Shown: positions 3,001 to 10,722 of the stretch, piece after piece | Layout: every line of letters begins with the position of its first letter | Numbering within the stretch: the first letter of the stretch is position 1 | From: Pseudoxanthobacter soli DSM 19599 | GTDB lineage: Bacteria > Pseudomonadota > Alphaproteobacteria > Rhizobiales > Segnochrobactraceae | NCBI GenBank assembly: GCA_945898215.1 | Contig: CAMDHY010000001.1 | Span: 1-64,000, forward strand | Length of the DNA stretch: 64,000 nt | Reading direction: 5' to 3' | The notes under the pieces: model-generated | What the model was told of the DNA's origin: nothing | Database searches by the model: none | Seen by the model: the letters and a program-made list of their open reading frames with translations, nothing else | Made by a program: the position numbers and the translations under genes

Positions 3001-3090
3001 TGGCGGAGGGAGAGGGATTCGAACCCTCGAGACGGTTTCCCGTCTACACACTTTCCAGGCGTGCGCCTTCAACCACTCGGCCACCCCTCC
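3001..3090 (-). tRNA. tRNA-Ser (anticodon GGA)
   Basis: The reverse complement begins GGAGGGGTGGCCGAGTGG and ends in an encoded CCA at 3001-3003. The acceptor stem pairs GGAGGG with CCCTCC. The anticodon loop reads CTGGAAA, giving GGA. The long variable arm (GTGTAGACGGGAAACCGTCT) is typical of class II serine tRNAs, and the T loop GGTTCGAATCC is intact. Its 3' end faces the low-GC region at 1-3000, so it is a plausible integration site. Confidence 0.97.
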
Positions 3091-3425: not shown

Positions 3426-4805
3426 GTGGCGCTGTCGCGCAGCGAAATCGAGGCGATGGCGCCGGACCAGAGCGCCCTGAAGGCCGCCGCCGCCTTGCTC
3501 AAGCCCGCCAAGTGGTCATCGCGGGGCATGGCGGGCGGACTGGTCTGGGGCGAGTGCCAGGGCACGGGGGCCAATCCCTACCGGGTCGCCGCCGACACCG
3601 TCGACATCGGCAGCAAATGTACCTGCCCGTCGCGAAAATTCCCCTGCAAGCACGCCATCGCCCTGATGTGGCTCCATGCCGACGAGCCGGGCGGCTTCCC
3701 GCCCAGTGAGCCCCCCGACTGGGTCGGCGAGTGGATGGGGCGGCGCCGCAAGTCCTCGGGCGCCGCTGTGCCGGCGGCCGGAGCGACGACCGCGCCCAAG
3801 AATCTCGATGCGGCCGTTGCGGAGCCGGCGGCGGCAGAGCTCGACGTGGCGGCCCTGGAGAAGCGAAGGGTCGCCGCCGAACGGCGGGCGGCGGATGTCC
3901 GCCGCCAGGTCGTGGCGGGTCTCGACGATCTGGAACTCTGGATCTCCGACCAGCTCCGCACGGGTCTCGGGGGCTTTCTCGGCGAGATGCCCGACCGCTG
4001 TCGACGCATCGCCGCCCGGCTGGTCGACGCCAAGGCCGGTTCCCTCTCCAGCCGTCTGGACGAATTGCCGTCGCGGGTGCTCCGACTGCCTCCCGACGAG
4101 CGTGTCGACGCCGCGATCGTCGAGCTCGGGAAGCTGACACTGGTGTCGCGCGCCTGGCGCGCCGCACCCGATGATCCCGAGTTGCGGCGCGAGGTGGTGG
4201 CCACGGAGACGCGGGACGATCTGCCCGGCGACAACGGCGGCCTGCGCCACGGTGCCCTTTGGGAAGTCCTCTGCGAGCAGATCGCCACCCGTCGCGACGG
4301 GCTGGTCAGCGTCTCCACCTGGTTGCTGAACACCGGCACCGATGGGCCGCGCTTCGCCGTCCTGATGGACCATTTTCCCGCCTCCGCCGGACGGCGGAGC
4401 GGCGCCTTCGCGGCGGGGTCCTGCTTCTGGGCCGAGCTGTTGTTCTATCCGGCGCGGGTCCCGCTCCGGGCGGTCATCGCCCAGCGCTCAGACGCCGAGG
4501 TGCGCGCCGACGTGCCGTGGCCGGAGGCCGGAGCGGCCGATCCGCTGCAGTCCTACCGCGACGCCCTGCTGGCTGCCCCCTGGCTGCTCGCCGCTCCGAT
4601 GGTCCTGCCGTCCGGGCGGATCGCCGAGGATCGCGCCGGTCGCCGCTGGTGGCTCGATGAAGCGCTGGCGCTTCCCGTTGAGGGCGCCGTGCCGGACATC
4701 GCGCTCGGGGCCCACATGGACGCCGCCGCAGGCCTTTGGAACGGGGCGCGGCTGACGCTGTTCGCGGCGCGGACCAACTGGGGACGGGTCGGTTTCGATG
4801 CTTGA
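3426..4805 (+). CDS. SWIM zinc-finger domain protein
   Basis: First gene of a five-gene operon. About 459 residues. A SWIM zinc finger with the pattern C-x-C-x6-C-x-H (CTCPSRKFPCKH) lies about 65 residues from the start; these four residues would bind zinc, and SWIM domains usually mediate DNA or protein binding. An Ala-rich linker follows, then a helical region and a C-terminal half I do not recognise. Three consecutive GTG codons (3420, 3423, 3426) could start it. I chose the third because GGGGGAG ends at 3420, five bases upstream. Its stop overlaps the next gene by 8 bases (ATGCTTGA). SWIM proteins of this size are known next to MoxR and VWA genes, and the molecular role is not established to my knowledge. 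Confidence 0.85.
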   Translation: MALSRSEIEAMAPDQSALKAAAALLKPAKWSSRGMAGGLVWGECQGTGANPYRVAADTVDIGSKCTCPSRKFPCKHAIALMWLHADEPGGFPPSEPPDWVGEWMGRRRKSSGAAVPAAGATTAPKNLDAAVAEPAAAELDVAALEKRRVAAERRAADVRRQVVAGLDDLELWISDQLRTGLGGFLGEMPDRCRRIAARLVDAKAGSLSSRLDELPSRVLRLPPDERVDAAIVELGKLTLVSRAWRAAPDDPELRREVVATETRDDLPGDNGGLRHGALWEVLCEQIATRRDGLVSVSTWLLNTGTDGPRFAVLMDHFPASAGRRSGAFAAGSCFWAELLFYPARVPLRAVIAQRSDAEVRADVPWPEAGAADPLQSYRDALLAAPWLLAAPMVLPSGRIAEDRAGRRWWLDEALALPVEGAVPDIALGAHMDAAAGLWNGARLTLFAARTNWGRVGFDA

Positions 4806-6237
4806 GTTGGAAGACCAGATTGCCCGCATCCGCGGCGCCTGGATGGCCGGTCGCGCTGCGGCCGACCTGACGCCGCCCGCCTGGCGGGAAGCCGTCGGGC
4901 AGGGTGACGGGGCGGAAGCGGCCCTCGTCGCCCTGATGGGGCAGGCGCTGCAGGTGCTGTGGCGACCAGTGCCGCCGCCGCTGACGCCCCGTCCGCTGCT
5001 GCCGAGGCTGGCGGCGCCACCGCCGCCGGACGCAGCCCGGTCTCGCATCCGCCGGATTCTGGCTGCCCGGCGCACCGACGCGGGTGGAGCGCGGGCCCTC
5101 GTGCTGTTCCTGGCCGCGCGCGGCTACGCCATGCATCCCGCCGACTGGCTGCCGCGGGCCACGGACGACTGGGTCCCGGCGCTCTATGCCCCGTGGCAGG
5201 GCTGGGTGGCGTCGGAACCCGAGGGCGCGCCGGACGACGCGCTGACCCTCGAGACCTGGGACGGCTGGCCCGCAACCGCCCGGCGGACCCTGCTCGTCGC
5301 CCTGCGCAGAACCGATCCGGCGGCAGCGCGCGCGATCATCGCCGCGAAGGCCGCAGCGGAGCCGGCGGAACGGCGGTTGCGGCTTCTGGAGGTCCTGGAA
5401 CAGGGCCTGTCGGCAGACGACGCGCCCGTGCTGGAGGCTTTCGCCCGGGACCGGTCCGACCGGGTGCAGGCGCTGGTGCGGATGCTGCTCGCGCGGCTCG
5501 GGAGGGCCGGGGATGAAGACGGCAGCGACGCGGAACTGGCGCAAGAACTGGCGCAGGAACTGGCGGCGATGGTCGAGCTCGGCCGGATCGGCCTGCTCAA
5601 GCGCCGCAGCCAGCTGAGGTTCAGGCCGCTGAAGACGCGGCCGCTGGAAAACCGGCGACGCGAGCTGATGGCCGTGGTCCCGCTCGGCGCGCTCGCCCGC
5701 GCGCTGGGGGTCGGGGAGATGGATCTCGTCGAGACCGTTCCGGACGACCACGCCCGTGTCCTCGATGCGTTCGCGACGATGGTGGTGGAGACGGCATCGG
5801 CCGCGGCCTGGCGGGCTCTTTTCGGCCTCACGCTGCAGGACCCCGACGTGCCGACCGAGGTGGCGGCGGTCCTCTGCCGCCGCGCCAGTTCCGGGGAGCG
5901 ATCGGCAATGCTGACCGCAGTGCTGGCGCGCGAGCCTTCGCCGACCTTCGATGGCGGCCTGGCCGTCGCGGGCGACGTGCTTGGCGCCGCCGACGGCGAG
6001 TTCCTGCCACGATCGGCCGGATACCGGGAACTCCTGGACCTGATCGCCACGCCGGATCAGACCGCCGCGTCTCCGCCCGTCGTGGCGGCCGGCCTGACCA
6101 ATCTCGGCCTGCTGCTCGACACGGCGGCGGCCCGGACCGTCTTAGCGGACTGCGCGGCAGCCGGGCTCTCCGCAGCGGATCCGCGGCTGGACATGCTCTC
6201 CCTGAACCTCGCCCTCAAACCGGAGCGCGCGACTTGA
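4798..6237 (+). CDS. DUF5691-like helical protein
   Basis: A 479-residue protein with no signal peptide or membrane segment. It is rich in Ala, Arg and Leu and looks all-helical, possibly HEAT-like. Segments such as FARDRSDRVQALVRMLLARL and the context SWIM-x-MoxR-x-VWA match what I recall of the DUF5691 family, which has no assigned biochemical activity. An ELAQELAQELA micro-repeat lies near residue 245. The start ATG overlaps the SWIM stop, and the TGA at 6235-6237 overlaps the TTG start of the MoxR gene, so translation is probably coupled at both ends. A scaffold or adaptor between the ATPase and its partners is a guess. Confidence 0.75.
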   Translation: MLELEDQIARIRGAWMAGRAAADLTPPAWREAVGQGDGAEAALVALMGQALQVLWRPVPPPLTPRPLLPRLAAPPPPDAARSRIRRILAARRTDAGGARALVLFLAARGYAMHPADWLPRATDDWVPALYAPWQGWVASEPEGAPDDALTLETWDGWPATARRTLLVALRRTDPAAARAIIAAKAAAEPAERRLRLLEVLEQGLSADDAPVLEAFARDRSDRVQALVRMLLARLGRAGDEDGSDAELAQELAQELAAMVELGRIGLLKRRSQLRFRPLKTRPLENRRRELMAVVPLGALARALGVGEMDLVETVPDDHARVLDAFATMVVETASAAAWRALFGLTLQDPDVPTEVAAVLCRRASSGERSAMLTAVLAREPSPTFDGGLAVAGDVLGAADGEFLPRSAGYRELLDLIATPDQTAASPPVVAAGLTNLGLLLDTAAARTVLADCAAAGLSAADPRLDMLSLNLALKPERAT

Positions 6238-7313
6238 ACGACATCCTGCGTCTTCCTGCCGAGACGACCCATGCCGCCGAGCTCGAGGCCCTGAAGCGCA
6301 ACGATGCGGCACCGACGCCGCGCGGCTGGGCGATGTCGCCGAGGGCCGTGGTGACCTACCTGATGGGAGGGCGGGCAGGGGACGGCACGGCGATCAGCCC
6401 CAAATATGTGGGCGACCGTCGCCTGATCGAGACGGCGGTCGCGACCCTCGCCACCGACAGGGCGCTGCTGCTGCTGGGCGTCCCCGGCACGGCGAAGTCC
6501 TGGGTGTCCGAGCATCTCGCCGCGGCGATCTGCGGCGAGTCCACCCTCGTCATCCAGTGCACCGCCGGCACCGACGAGAACCAGATCCGCTATGGCTGGA
6601 ACTACGCCCAGCTGCTGGCCCACGGCCCGTCGCGGGAGGCGCTGGTGCCGACACCGCTCTATCGCGCGATGGAGGCCGGCAAGCTCTGCCGGCTGGAGGA
6701 ACTGACGCGCATGGGCTCGGACGTGCAGGACGCGCTGATCACCGTGCTCTCCGAGAAGATGATGCCGATCCCGGAGCTGAACGAGGTCGTCTATGCGCGG
6801 CGTGGCTTCAACCTCATCGCCACCGCCAACAACCGCGACAAGGGCGTCAACGAGCTCTCCTCCGCCCTGAAGCGCCGCTTCAACGTCGTCGTCCTGCCGC
6901 TGCCGGACGACATCGACGAGGAGATCGCGATCGTCACCCGGCGTGTCGGCGAACTCGCACAGAGCCTAGACCTGCCGGCGCCGAAGAACGTGGCGGAAGA
7001 GGTCGCCCGGGTCGTGGCGATCTTCCGCGAGCTGCGCGGCGGCGCGACCCTCGACGGCAAGGTCACGCTGAAGACACCGTCGGGCTCGCTGTCCACGGCT
7101 GAGGCGATCGCGGTGACGATCGGCGGCCTCAGCCAGGCGGCCTATTTCGACGACGGCAGGCTCGGCGCCGAAGGCTTGGCGCCGAGCCTTCTCGGGGCGA
7201 TCGTCAAGGACCCGGTGCAGGACAAGATCGTGCTGGAGGAATACCTCGAGGCCGCCCTGAAGCGGCGCCCGGACTTCGCCGGCTACTACCGCGCCCTGGT
7301 CGACCTGGTCTGA
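6234..7313 (+). CDS. MoxR-type AAA+ ATPase
   Basis: A 359-residue MoxR/RavA-like AAA+ ATPase. Visible motifs are Walker A GVPGTAKS (82-89), an acidic Walker B-like segment LCRLEELTR (151-159), sensor-1 ATANN (196-200) and a candidate arginine finger in LKRRF (212-216). MoxR ATPases remodel or activate client proteins, generally together with a VWA-domain partner, and one is encoded two genes downstream. The start is TTG at 6234, embedded in the upstream stop (TTGA), and no better start lies nearby. The gap to the next gene is two bases. The protein lacks membrane segments, so it should act in the cytoplasm. Confidence 0.92.
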   Translation: MNDILRLPAETTHAAELEALKRNDAAPTPRGWAMSPRAVVTYLMGGRAGDGTAISPKYVGDRRLIETAVATLATDRALLLLGVPGTAKSWVSEHLAAAICGESTLVIQCTAGTDENQIRYGWNYAQLLAHGPSREALVPTPLYRAMEAGKLCRLEELTRMGSDVQDALITVLSEKMMPIPELNEVVYARRGFNLIATANNRDKGVNELSSALKRRFNVVVLPLPDDIDEEIAIVTRRVGELAQSLDLPAPKNVAEEVARVVAIFRELRGGATLDGKVTLKTPSGSLSTAEAIAVTIGGLSQAAYFDDGRLGAEGLAPSLLGAIVKDPVQDKIVLEEYLEAALKRRPDFAGYYRALVDLV

Positions 7314-7315
7314 GC

Positions 7316-9559
7316 GTGCCGGCCAGCGTCCACATCTACGGCATCCGGCACCATGGGCCGGGGTCCGCGCGGCGGCTGGTCGACGCGCTCGAAGCGGTGC
7401 GGCCGACGACGGTGCTGATCGAGGGCCCCGTCGACGCGTCCGACCTGCTGCCGATGCTCGCCGATCCGGCGATGGTCCCGCCGGTCGCGCTGCTCGTCTA
7501 TGCGTCGGACGATCCGGCGCGCGCCACGTTCTGGCCGTTCGCCGCCTATTCGCCGGAGTACCAGGCGGCGTGCTGGGCGGTGCGCAACGGCGCGGCGCTG
7601 CGCTTCATCGACCTGCCCGCCGGCTGGGCGCTGGCGGCGCAACCGGAGCCCGCCGCGACCGAGGCGAGCGAACCGGCGGAAGACGACGCCCCGCCGGTCG
7701 ACGAGATGGCCATGCGGCTGGAGCGCGATCCGATCGGGGTGCTGGCCGAGGCCGGCGGCTACGAGGACGGCGAGAGCTGGTGGCGCGATGTCATCGAGGA
7801 GAACCCGGCCTCCGAACCCGTCTTCGCCGCGGTCGCCGACGCGATGGCGGCCCTGCGGGCGGCTGCCCGGCCGGTCGCGGGGCGCGAGGCCGCCCGCGAG
7901 GCGCACATGCGGCTGGAGATCGCCCGTGCCGCCCGCGAGTCGGACGGGGCGGTGGCGGTCGTCTGCGGTGCCTGGCACGTGCCGGCGCTGCTGGCGAAGA
8001 TCTCGCCGGCGGAGGACCGGGCGCGGTTGAAGGGGGCGCCGAAGCAGAAGGTCAGCGCCACCTTTGCCCCCTGGACCTCGCCGAGGCTTGCCTTCGGGAG
8101 CGGCTACGCCGCCGGCGTCACGGCACCGGGCTGGTGCAGCCACCTGTGGGGGACGCCGCGCGAGGACGCATCGGCGCGCTGGCTGGGGCGGATCGCTCAG
8201 GCGTTGCGGGCCGCCGGACACGTCGCTTCCACGGCCTCGCTGATCGAGGCGCAACGGCTGGCGATCGTGCTCGCCGCCTTGCGCGAGCGGCCGCAACCGG
8301 GCTTCGAGGAACTCCGCGAAGCGGCGATCGCCTGCCTCTGCCACGGTGAGCGCCTGGTGTGGGACACCATCGCCGCCGGTCTGCTGCTCGGCGATGCCGT
8401 CGGCGAAATTCCCGCCGACGTGCCGCTGGCGCCGCTGATCGAGGACCTCCAGCGTGAGCAGCGCCGGACAAGGCTCAAGCCGGAGGCACTGGAACGCGAG
8501 CTGGCGATCGATCTGCGCAGCGACGGCGGGCTGGACCGCTCGACGCTGCTGCACCGCCTGACGATCCTCGACGTCCCGTGGGGCCGTCTCGTCGATGCAG
8601 GCCGCAGCCGCGGGACCTTCCGCGAGCGGTGGCTGCTGAGATGGGAGCCGGAGTTCGCCGTCCGGCTGGTCGAGAACCTCGTCTACGGTCCGACCATCGC
8701 CCGCGCCGCCGCGGGGCGTCTGACGGAACGGTTGAGCGCTGCGGCCGACCTGCCGACGCTCTGCGCCCTGACGCTGTCGGCGCTGACGGCCCAGTTGCCG
8801 GAGGCCGCACACGCGGGCCTGCAGCACATCGAGCACCGGGTGGCCCTCACCAGCGACTGCGGCGAACTGCTTTCCTCGCTGCCGCCGCTCGGCGACATCG
8901 TCCGCTACGGCCAGGCGCGCCGGACCGACGCAGAGCAGTTGTCGGCCCTGTTCATCCGCATCCTGTCGCAGGGGGCGCTGGCGCTGCCCTATGCCGCGCG
9001 CGGGCTGGACGCCGACGCCGCCCGCGGCCTGCGCGCCCACGTGCTGGCCGCCGACGCTACGGCGTCGCTGGCCGCGGCGGACCGGACCGGCTGGCGGCAG
9101 GCGCTGTCGGCCGTGATCGAGGACGAGCAGTCGACGCCGATGCTCGCCGGTGCCGCCGCCCGGCTCCTCTACGAGGCCGACGTGCTCTCCCCGCAGGCCG
9201 CGGCCGACCTGCTCGGCCGCATGCTCTCGCCGGGACGGGCGGTGGCCGAGGCGGCGGGCTTCTTCGATGGTTTCTTCGATGGGGCGGGAGAACGCCTGAT
9301 CTACGACGACGGCCTGCGGGCGGCCGTCGACCGCTGGATGGCGCAGCTTGGTGGCGAAGACTTCACGGTGTTCCTGCCCTTGTTCCGGCGCGCGCTCGGA
9401 AACCTCGACCGCATGCAACGGCGACGGCTGCTCGACGCGCTGTTCGAGCGGGGGGCGGGGGGCTTGCAGGGCCGCGCGGTGACGCCCGACGCACCGGCGA
9501 TCTGGCCCGCCCACCTCGAGCGGCTGACGGCGCTCCTGACCGCGAGGTCGTCGACATGA
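7316..9559 (+). CDS. DUF5682-like protein with TraB/Tiki-type motifs
   Basis: A 747-residue protein starting at GTG 7316, two bases after the MoxR stop. The N-terminus reads IYGIRHHGPGSARRL, then after one helix VLIEGPVD (33-40). Near residue 214 there is VVCGAWHVPAL (H221). A GxxH-like first strand, an acidic second strand and a late G-x-x-H strand are the marks of the TraB/Tiki/EreA/ChaN fold, whose Tiki members are metal-dependent hydrolases; that assignment is my inference. The rest is a long helical region. By context and size it matches what I know as DUF5682, a family with no established function. It overlaps the VWA gene by ATGA. The bottom strand is also open over a long stretch here, a codon-bias shadow. 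Confidence 0.8.
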   Translation: MPASVHIYGIRHHGPGSARRLVDALEAVRPTTVLIEGPVDASDLLPMLADPAMVPPVALLVYASDDPARATFWPFAAYSPEYQAACWAVRNGAALRFIDLPAGWALAAQPEPAATEASEPAEDDAPPVDEMAMRLERDPIGVLAEAGGYEDGESWWRDVIEENPASEPVFAAVADAMAALRAAARPVAGREAAREAHMRLEIARAARESDGAVAVVCGAWHVPALLAKISPAEDRARLKGAPKQKVSATFAPWTSPRLAFGSGYAAGVTAPGWCSHLWGTPREDASARWLGRIAQALRAAGHVASTASLIEAQRLAIVLAALRERPQPGFEELREAAIACLCHGERLVWDTIAAGLLLGDAVGEIPADVPLAPLIEDLQREQRRTRLKPEALERELAIDLRSDGGLDRSTLLHRLTILDVPWGRLVDAGRSRGTFRERWLLRWEPEFAVRLVENLVYGPTIARAAAGRLTERLSAAADLPTLCALTLSALTAQLPEAAHAGLQHIEHRVALTSDCGELLSSLPPLGDIVRYGQARRTDAEQLSALFIRILSQGALALPYAARGLDADAARGLRAHVLAADATASLAAADRTGWRQALSAVIEDEQSTPMLAGAAARLLYEADVLSPQAAADLLGRMLSPGRAVAEAAGFFDGFFDGAGERLIYDDGLRAAVDRWMAQLGGEDFTVFLPLFRRALGNLDRMQRRRLLDALFERGAGGLQGRAVTPDAPAIWPAHLERLTALLTARSST

Positions 9560-10722
9560 ACGAGGAGCGCGAGCGGCGCTGGCGTCTGGCGGTCGGCAGC
9601 GAGGACGATGCGCTGCCGCAGGAGGACGATCGCCGCCTTTCGAAGGCCCTGACGATGCTCTACGGCGAAGGCGAAGGCGCCGCCGGTGGTGGCAAGGGGC
9701 GCGGCAGCCTCGCCCGCTCGGCGCCGAGCGTCGCACGCTGGCTGGGCGATATCCGCCAGTTCTTCCCGACCTCCGTTGTGCAGGTGGTGCAGAAGGACGC
9801 CATGGAGCGGCTGGGCCTGCAGCAGATGCTGCTCGAGCCGGAGTTGCTGGCGGCGGTCGAGGCCGACGTGAACCTCGTCGCCACCCTGATCAGCCTGCGC
9901 AGCGTCATGCCGGCCAAGGCGAAGGCGATCGCCCGGGAGGTGATCGGCAAGGTCGTCGCGGCGCTGATGGAGAGGCTGGAGCAGCGGACCGCCGAGGCGG
10001 TGCGCGGCGCCGTCGACCGCCGGCGGCGGACGGGTCGGCCACGCTTCCCGGACATCGACTGGCCGCGCACCATCCAGGCGAACCTCCGCCACTACCAGCC
10101 CGCGCATCGCACCGTGGTGCCGGAGCGGCTCATCGGCTTCATGCGCCGCCAGCGACGGCTGGTCGATCTGGACGAGGTGGTCCTCTGCGTGGACCAGTCC
10201 GGATCGATGGCCTCGTCGGTGGTCTATGCGTCGATCTTCGCTGCGGTCATGGCCTCGCTGCCGACGGTCAGGACGAAGCTGGTCTGTTTCGACACGGCGA
10301 TTCTCGACCTGACCGAAGATCTGGCGGACCCGGTCGAGGTGCTGTTCGGCGTCCAGCTTGGCGGCGGCACGGACATCAACCAGGCCGTCGCCTACTGCGA
10401 GGGACGGATCGAGAGGCCAGCGCGCTCCCATCTGATCCTGATCACGGACCTGTTCGAGGGCGGGAACAGTGAGGCGCTGGTCGCACGGCTCGCGCGACTG
10501 GTGGCTTCGGGCGTCAACGTCATCACCCTCCTGGCGCTCAGTGACGACGGCCGCCCGGCCCACGACCCGATGTTGTCCGCCCGGGTGGCGGCGCTTGGCG
10601 TGCCAGTGTTCGCATGCACGCCGGACCACTTCCCCGCCTTGATGGCCGCTGCCCTCAAGCGCGAGAACGTGCATGACTGGGCCGCTGAAGCCGACATCAA
10701 GGTCGTTCGGGCTGCAGAGTGA
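9556..10722 (+). CDS. VWA domain protein with intact MIDAS motif
   Basis: A 388-residue protein and last gene of the operon, starting at ATG 9556 inside the upstream stop (ATGA). The N-terminal half (about 1-200) is charged and helical, with a Gly-rich linker near 40-50. The C-terminal von Willebrand A domain carries a complete metal-ion-dependent adhesion site: DQSGS (213-217), T272 in GGGTD and D298 in ILITDLFEGG. No signal peptide or membrane helix is present, so this is a cytoplasmic VWA protein of the kind that partners MoxR ATPases (RavA-ViaA, CbbQ-CbbO and NorQ-NorD are established pairs). The helical part presumably contacts the ATPase or the client. Confidence 0.92.
   Translation: MNEERERRWRLAVGSEDDALPQEDDRRLSKALTMLYGEGEGAAGGGKGRGSLARSAPSVARWLGDIRQFFPTSVVQVVQKDAMERLGLQQMLLEPELLAAVEADVNLVATLISLRSVMPAKAKAIAREVIGKVVAALMERLEQRTAEAVRGAVDRRRRTGRPRFPDIDWPRTIQANLRHYQPAHRTVVPERLIGFMRRQRRLVDLDEVVLCVDQSGSMASSVVYASIFAAVMASLPTVRTKLVCFDTAILDLTEDLADPVEVLFGVQLGGGTDINQAVAYCEGRIERPARSHLILITDLFEGGNSEALVARLARLVASGVNVITLLALSDDGRPAHDPMLSARVAALGVPVFACTPDHFPALMAAALKRENVHDWAAEADIKVVRAAE

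Follow-up and report, generated by a model that had tools for sequence, protein, structure and literature searches.

In this work we analysed a five-gene operon at positions 3426–10722 of a 64,000-nucleotide stretch of Pseudoxanthobacter soli DSM 19599 (contig CAMDHY010000001.1, positions 1 to 64,000; hereafter the window). It encodes, in this order, a SWIM zinc-finger protein, a DUF5691 protein, a MoxR-type AAA+ ATPase, a DUF5682 protein and a VWA protein, an arrangement that we call type A. Sequence comparison identifies it as a variant of yehLMPQ of Escherichia coli, the operon that typifies the YehL subfamily of MoxR proteins, while modelling and profile comparison point to residues 1 to about 235 of the DUF5682 protein being a TIKI-superfamily (ChaN/TraB/Ere-like) domain, an assignment that is new here. 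The explanation that best accounts for the whole, which we put forward as a tentative one, is that this is the type A form of a YehL-subfamily MoxR/VWA system, in which the motor would control a TIKI-type hydrolase encoded within the operon and provided with a SWIM-OB targeting arm. The earlier note on this DNA, made from the sequence alone, described a set of unknown function, which still holds, but missed the kinship with yehLMPQ.

The N-terminal domain of DUF5682 and the SWIM protein

The DUF5682 protein (7316–9559, + strand, GTG start, 747 amino acids) was modelled by AlphaFold2 from 76 rows with a pLDDT of 91.7. Residues 1–233 of the model superimposed on ChaN (2g5g) with a Z-score of 9.6 over 140 residues (root-mean-square deviation, rmsd, 3.5). 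ChaN surfaced in this realignment only: a Foldseek search of the whole model against the PDB gave no significant match, and a sequence search of the protein against solved structures returned nothing. Against viral proteins, Foldseek gave a TraB-family protein with a probability of 0.99 (E 0.06). Past the TIKI domain, the model matched helical-repeat proteins and is predicted to consist of HEAT-like repeats. A profile alignment with ChaN over residues 4–222 brings both GxxH motifs, the Glu and the D/N-L-P into register, and hhalign assigns to DUF5682 a probability of 15% with ChaN and 26% with TraB, each above 40/40 column shuffles. The DUF5682–EreA value (0.8%) is below the best of its shuffles; accepted pairs of the superfamily reached 7% (ChaN–EreA) and 85% (ChaN–TraB) in the same test. 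H12, E36 and H221 of DUF5682 are invariant in 76 sequences; the profile alignment pairs them with GxxH, E and GxxH in ChaN, and they are the positions that match the catalytic His/Glu/His of TIKI/Ere enzymes. In the Ere enzymes the catalytic water is held by His50, Glu78 and His289 (EreC H50, E78 and H289; PMC7979712), while RRSP cannot do without a 2His/2Glu set (PMC6254334). We infer a TIKI-type hydrolase activity for DUF5682, and with it a substrate. The earlier note had rightly seen a hydrolase-like signature in this protein, and the signature can now be named as a TIKI-superfamily domain.

The SWIM protein (3426–4805, + strand, GTG start, 459 amino acids) is composed of an N-terminal ZSWIM-like SWIM domain, a helical middle and, at the C-terminus, probable tandem OB folds (about residues 268–362 and 365–453). 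The SWIM motif, CxCPSRKFPCKH at residues 65–76, is invariant in 56 sequences. In the AlphaFold2 model (pLDDT 90), residues 1–94 superimpose on the SWIM domain of human ZSWIM8 (9rwz) with a Z-score of 10.1 and an rmsd of 2.3. Residues 268–362 match SSB and PriB OB folds in dozens of entries (Z 6–7; Foldseek probability up to 1.00, E 0.01), and residues 365–453 match an OB region of MCM (Z 6). These predicted features point to a nucleic-acid-binding partner. The DUF5691 protein (4798–6237, + strand, 479 amino acids) is weakly conserved and is probably a helical-repeat (HEAT-like) scaffold, its matches being to alphaRep and HEAT proteins and all of them weak.

Kinship with yehLMPQ and linkage of the five families

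The E. coli K-12 order yehL-yehM-yehP-yehQ reads as MoxR-DUF5682-VWA-SWIM. The window MoxR protein shares 43% identity with YehL along its full length (246 bits, compared with 23.5 bits to RavA), the DUF5682 protein is 31% identical to YehM across 522 residues, and the VWA protein is 35% identical to YehP; with ViaA, which together with RavA forms the other MoxR–VWA pair of K-12, the VWA protein reaches 23.5 bits. The literature counts seven MoxR subfamilies, YehL among them, and two MoxR proteins in E. coli K-12 (PMC3893208). For the SWIM protein, the BLASTP alignment with YehQ is confined to the CxC..CxH motif and a profile comparison of the two gives 0.7%, which does not support full-length orthology.

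We call type B the MoxR-DUF5682-VWA-SWIM form, found in E. coli, Sinorhizobium, Agrobacterium vitis and Iodobacter, which lacks DUF5691 and has DUF4132 nearby or between its genes. On a MoxR+VWA tree, obtained by a quick search and with no root inferred, types A and B are separated by a branch with full support. Some Bacteroidota carry a complete type A set with DUF4132 as a sixth gene. We rejected the idea that DUF5691 was swapped for DUF4132 or is hidden in YehQ, as the profiles are dissimilar and DUF4132 also stands beside these complete type A sets.

All five type A families are present in 73 of 80 independent homologous loci taken from genomes, which represent at least ten phyla (ten named). 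Five of the seven incomplete loci are truncated short contigs; on these counts the linkage of the five families is not a matter of chance. The earlier note called for a search for their co-occurrence; its view that the genes are made together and form a self-contained set is supported. Among 398 Pseudomonadota genomes, 14 have DUF5682, seven of them in type A form and seven in type B form only; DUF5691 scores above the cut-off in all seven genomes with a type A DUF5682 and in no other, the type-B-only genomes included among those without it, a match whose probability would be near 3e-15 if the two were independent. In the order to which the window belongs, the set is patchy and occurs in 1 of 41 relatives. 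The E. coli form is core, with at least 80% query cover in 5162 of 5426 genomes (about 95%). Two cyanobacterial loci (L045:275–2539 and L087:9998–12256), one of them at a contig edge, have DUF5682 without a neighbouring MoxR or VWA gene.

Gene fusions suggest how the five proteins are associated. SWIM and DUF5691 are fused in three loci (L021, L051 and L083), each with both full domains, and DUF5682 is fused to VWA (residues 885–1267) on a Streptomyces plasmid (L023). At the divergent locus L093, the SWIM and DUF5691 genes are on one strand while those of MoxR, DUF5682 and VWA are on the other. These fusions and this strand split suggest two sub-assemblies, SWIM+DUF5691 and MoxR+DUF5682+VWA. 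The MoxR–DUF5682 junction varies in length: an additional small gene or a 0.2–0.7-kb gap is found there in L020:9765–10001, L021:9368–9979, L065 and L097, the extra gene of L021 (the one tested) having no Pfam match, and about 4.3 kb separate the two genes in a Variovorax locus (L069:5686–10000), which suggests an insertion within the operon.

The operon is found in 36 plasmid records and one unverified phage record, and 2.9 million viral contigs hold no relative of it. Together with its prevalence in E. coli and its patchy distribution in the order and in the phylum, these counts indicate that the operon moves between chromosomes as a unit and is not phage-borne. On an E. coli conjugative plasmid that also carries CTX-M-15 (NZ_CP103756.1, L026), a chromosomal yehI-yehLMPQ-btsSR-mlrA segment lies between IS26 copies.

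Proposed mechanism and rival explanations

The motor proteins have the expected motifs. The MoxR protein, of YehL type (6234–7313, + strand, TTG start, 359 amino acids), has a Walker A (GVPGTAKS), a sensor 1 (ATANNRD, conserved in 100/103 MoxR rows) and an arginine-rich LKRRF, and the VWA_CoxE-type protein (9556–10722, + strand, 388 amino acids) has an intact metal ion-dependent adhesion site (MIDAS; DQSGSM, GGGTD and TDLFEG), of which DxSGSM is conserved in 95 of 97 VWA rows. The earlier note's pairing of MoxR with VWA, as the engine, is supported. NorQ is among the closest solved relatives by sequence; in NorQ–NorD, a VWA finger plugs the MoxR ring and the MIDAS grips the client (PMC9976466).

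From the fold, the linkage and the conservation, which were established by computation, we infer activity, target and biological role as follows. The client would be inside the operon, DUF5682 being the best candidate. Driven by ATP, a MoxR ring whose pore is occupied by the VWA 'finger' would switch or open DUF5682, to which VWA would be physically tied. We count as support for this mechanism the fusions, which tie VWA to DUF5682 and SWIM to DUF5691, and, by analogy, the NorQ–NorD precedent of a MoxR ring and a VWA MIDAS moving a client. The bond hydrolysed at the His/Glu/His site of DUF5682 would be a peptide, ester or amide bond. By docking the machine on a nucleoprotein or on single-stranded nucleic acid, the SWIM-OB/DUF5691 arm would limit hydrolysis to the bound target; the WGR domain of a type B DUF4132 protein is counted in favour of nucleic-acid targeting. 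The role would more likely be stress or quality-control housekeeping than anti-phage defence. That the operon would encode an ATP-driven, nucleic-acid-targeted hydrolase, in effect an AAA+ protease or esterase of a new kind, in which MoxR and VWA gate the TIKI-type site and the SWIM/OB arm delivers it to nucleoprotein that is damaged or stalled, yehLMPQ acting alike, is a statement that we regard as doubtful when taken in full.

Several observations weigh against the reading of DUF5682 as a motor-controlled hydrolase with a targeting arm. DUF5682 (GIRHH) lacks the extra Glu that 2His/2Glu members have just before their first His; nevertheless, this Glu marks a subset and not the whole TIKI superfamily, since TraB members (GTIH, of the TraB-type GTxH) are also without it. 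The absolute profile probabilities with ChaN and TraB (15–26%) are low. The TIKI fold also includes non-enzymes, and it is no proof of an enzyme because ChaN itself is a heme binder. The OB scores of the SWIM protein (Z 6–7) are in a range that can be reached by a common arrangement alone, and the repeat nature of DUF5691 depends entirely on weak matches. Finally, no activity, complex or phenotype is known; the literature searched contains no functional study, in agreement with the unknown function named in the earlier note.

Other explanations start from the motor or from its surroundings. The operon might encode a maturation chaperone of the NorQ–NorD, CbbQ–CbbO or CoxD–CoxE type, which would load a client enzyme encoded elsewhere with a metal or cofactor, the other three proteins aiding recognition. 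This is the established job of several MoxR–VWA pairs (PMC3893208, PMC9976466) and NorQ is among the nearest solved relatives, but known clients are usually adjacent and no enzyme recurs at the 80 loci: no gene family recurs often enough to be a client, either among 858 flanking open reading frames (ORFs) or by Pfam on 148 flank proteins. An external metalloenzyme client was therefore rejected; as the earlier note had observed, none adjoins the operon here, and none recurs at homologous loci. In addition, the operon travels complete across genomes and phyla with its own candidate enzyme, and we consider the chaperone explanation unlikely. We give about the same modest weight to a response to nucleic-acid damage or to RNA repair, a narrower version of our best explanation, in which the SWIM-OB arm or a WGR–DUF4132 protein would sense damaged DNA or RNA and the engine would trigger DUF5682. 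In support of this idea, the type B DUF4132 protein of Sinorhizobium has a WGR domain, WGR yehF and DUF4132 yehI are immediately upstream of yehL in E. coli, and Deinococcus radiodurans genes with WGR or DUF4132, alike by their domains, go up on depletion of the DNA-damage repressor DdrO (PMC8533742). Furthermore, genes for RtcR, a regulator of RNA repair, and for a Ro60-like protein occur together, at most 10 kb from the type A operon, in 3 of the 80 loci, compared with about 0.013 expected (L100:13561–16935, L031:19482–22235 and L099:1–2781, from three unrelated lineages), and RtcR is enriched in DUF5682 genomes (4/14 compared with 22/384 others, Fisher p 0.009). However, the Ro60–RtcR link is rare and was picked post hoc, and the window's own genome is without RtcR.

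The earlier note had also called the set possibly conflict-related. An anti-phage or conflict system of the MoxR–vWA ternary type, in which DUF5682 would be the toxic effector, is in our opinion improbable. Such ternary systems exist (PMC7159879), the MoxR protein has a weak likeness to mad8, a MADS component (PADLOC, E 0.005), and the distribution in Pseudomonadota is patchy. On the other side, PADLOC matches none of the other four proteins, viral contigs contain no relative of the operon and there is one unverified phage record, the E. coli form is core, and the flanks of homologous loci contain mostly housekeeping genes and no defence islands: the DndA/SspA models match four flank proteins, which belong to aminotransferase class V, as cysteine desulfurases do, and the remaining PADLOC matches come one or two each. 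An anti-phage island was rejected as the leading reading on these grounds. Least probable of all, and hardly to be expected, is a tetrapyrrole or iron machine, in which the ChaN-like domain would bind heme and MoxR and VWA would act as the AAA+ and VWA subunits of magnesium and cobalt chelatases do. The best structural match is indeed the heme-binding ChaN, and the chelatase motor is an AAA+ and VWA pair, but the flanks show no recurrent gene for porphyrin or iron, the conserved residues fit the catalytic set of TIKI/Ere enzymes, and the SWIM-OB arm is left without a role.

Layout of the window and comparison with known systems

All five ORFs of the operon are on the + strand, and the junctions are, in gene order, an overlap of 8 bases, an overlap of 4 bases, a gap of 2 bases and an overlap of 4 bases, so that the direction, the overlaps and the 2-base gap are as described earlier. 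The start of the SWIM gene at 3426 is backed by a homologue of equal length in Caulobacter endophyticus (L027). All five proteins are above the curated Pfam cut-offs: SWIM (PF04434, E 1.5e-6), DUF5691 (PF18944, E 4e-20), MoxR (AAA_5, E 1.7e-38), DUF5682 (PF18934, E 1.5e-211, 705 bits) and VWA_CoxE (PF05762, E 1.2e-53). The two proteins that had been called DUF5691-like and DUF5682-like are thus true members of their families. NCBIfam and PADLOC searches of the five proteins gave no useful name, and no promoter or terminator pattern was found.

The operon is next to a tRNA-Ser (3001–3090, – strand), which had led to the proposal of a tRNA-linked island edge. This is not supported: the 3' end of the tRNA points away from the operon, and the 145-kb contig has no tyrosine integrase and no phage integrase family match. 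GC content is 70–75% in the operon compared with 57–63% beyond the tRNA-Ser, and if any island is present it lies on that left side (1–2691), which encodes a GGDEF/EAL protein as well as a short GGDEF fragment (2422–2691). An insertion site in common with the nearest relative, that of C. endophyticus (79% identity), was also rejected, as the flanks of L027 show no similarity; nor do genomes within the same family offer a clear orthologue of the flank gene by which synteny of the site could be followed.

Operons of the yehLMPQ kind were already known, whereas the predicted TIKI domain and HEAT-like repeats of DUF5682, and the ZSWIM8-like domain and probable OB folds of the SWIM protein, are new here. 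A five-part machine is conserved as a set in at least ten phyla and has a sister form in about 95% of E. coli genomes. The putative TIKI-type site and SWIM-OB arm join the orphans DUF5682, DUF5691, the SWIM protein and YehL in one testable hypothesis, which can be tried in E. coli K-12. If it is true, the system would be a MoxR–VWA engine with a built-in client, unlike the known chaperone pairs.

Like yehLMPQ, the operon of the window unites MoxR, DUF5682, VWA and a SWIM protein, and the DUF5682 proteins of both forms have the GxxH, E and GxxH motifs; yehLMPQ differs by its gene order, by the absence of DUF5691 and the presence of DUF4132 (yehI, upstream), and by a longer YehQ that aligns with the window protein at the SWIM motif alone. 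With NorQ–NorD, CbbQ–CbbO, RavA–ViaA and CoxD–CoxE it shares an engine made of a MoxR AAA+ protein and a VWA protein with an intact MIDAS, but the sequences are distant from RavA and ViaA, and in place of an external client gene the operon has its TIKI-type protein and SWIM-OB arm. The MoxR–vWA–VMAP ternary conflict systems (Kaur et al. 2020) also combine MoxR, vWA and a third component; by Pfam, however, the five window proteins have no VMAP, beta-propeller, FtsH third component, effector or EAD domain, the window MoxR protein gives 23.5 bits with bpMoxR, under the cut-off of 27, and the paper on these systems makes no mention of YehL, SWIM, DUF5682, DUF4132 or TIKI. Finally, the likeness to the TIKI superfamily (Tiki, TraB/PrgY, ChaN, erythromycin esterase and RRSP) lies in the predicted core fold, a sheet flanked by helices, and in the invariant His, Glu and His of the N-terminal domain, while in DUF5682 this domain sits on a HEAT-like scaffold, in an AAA+ operon and in the cytoplasm.

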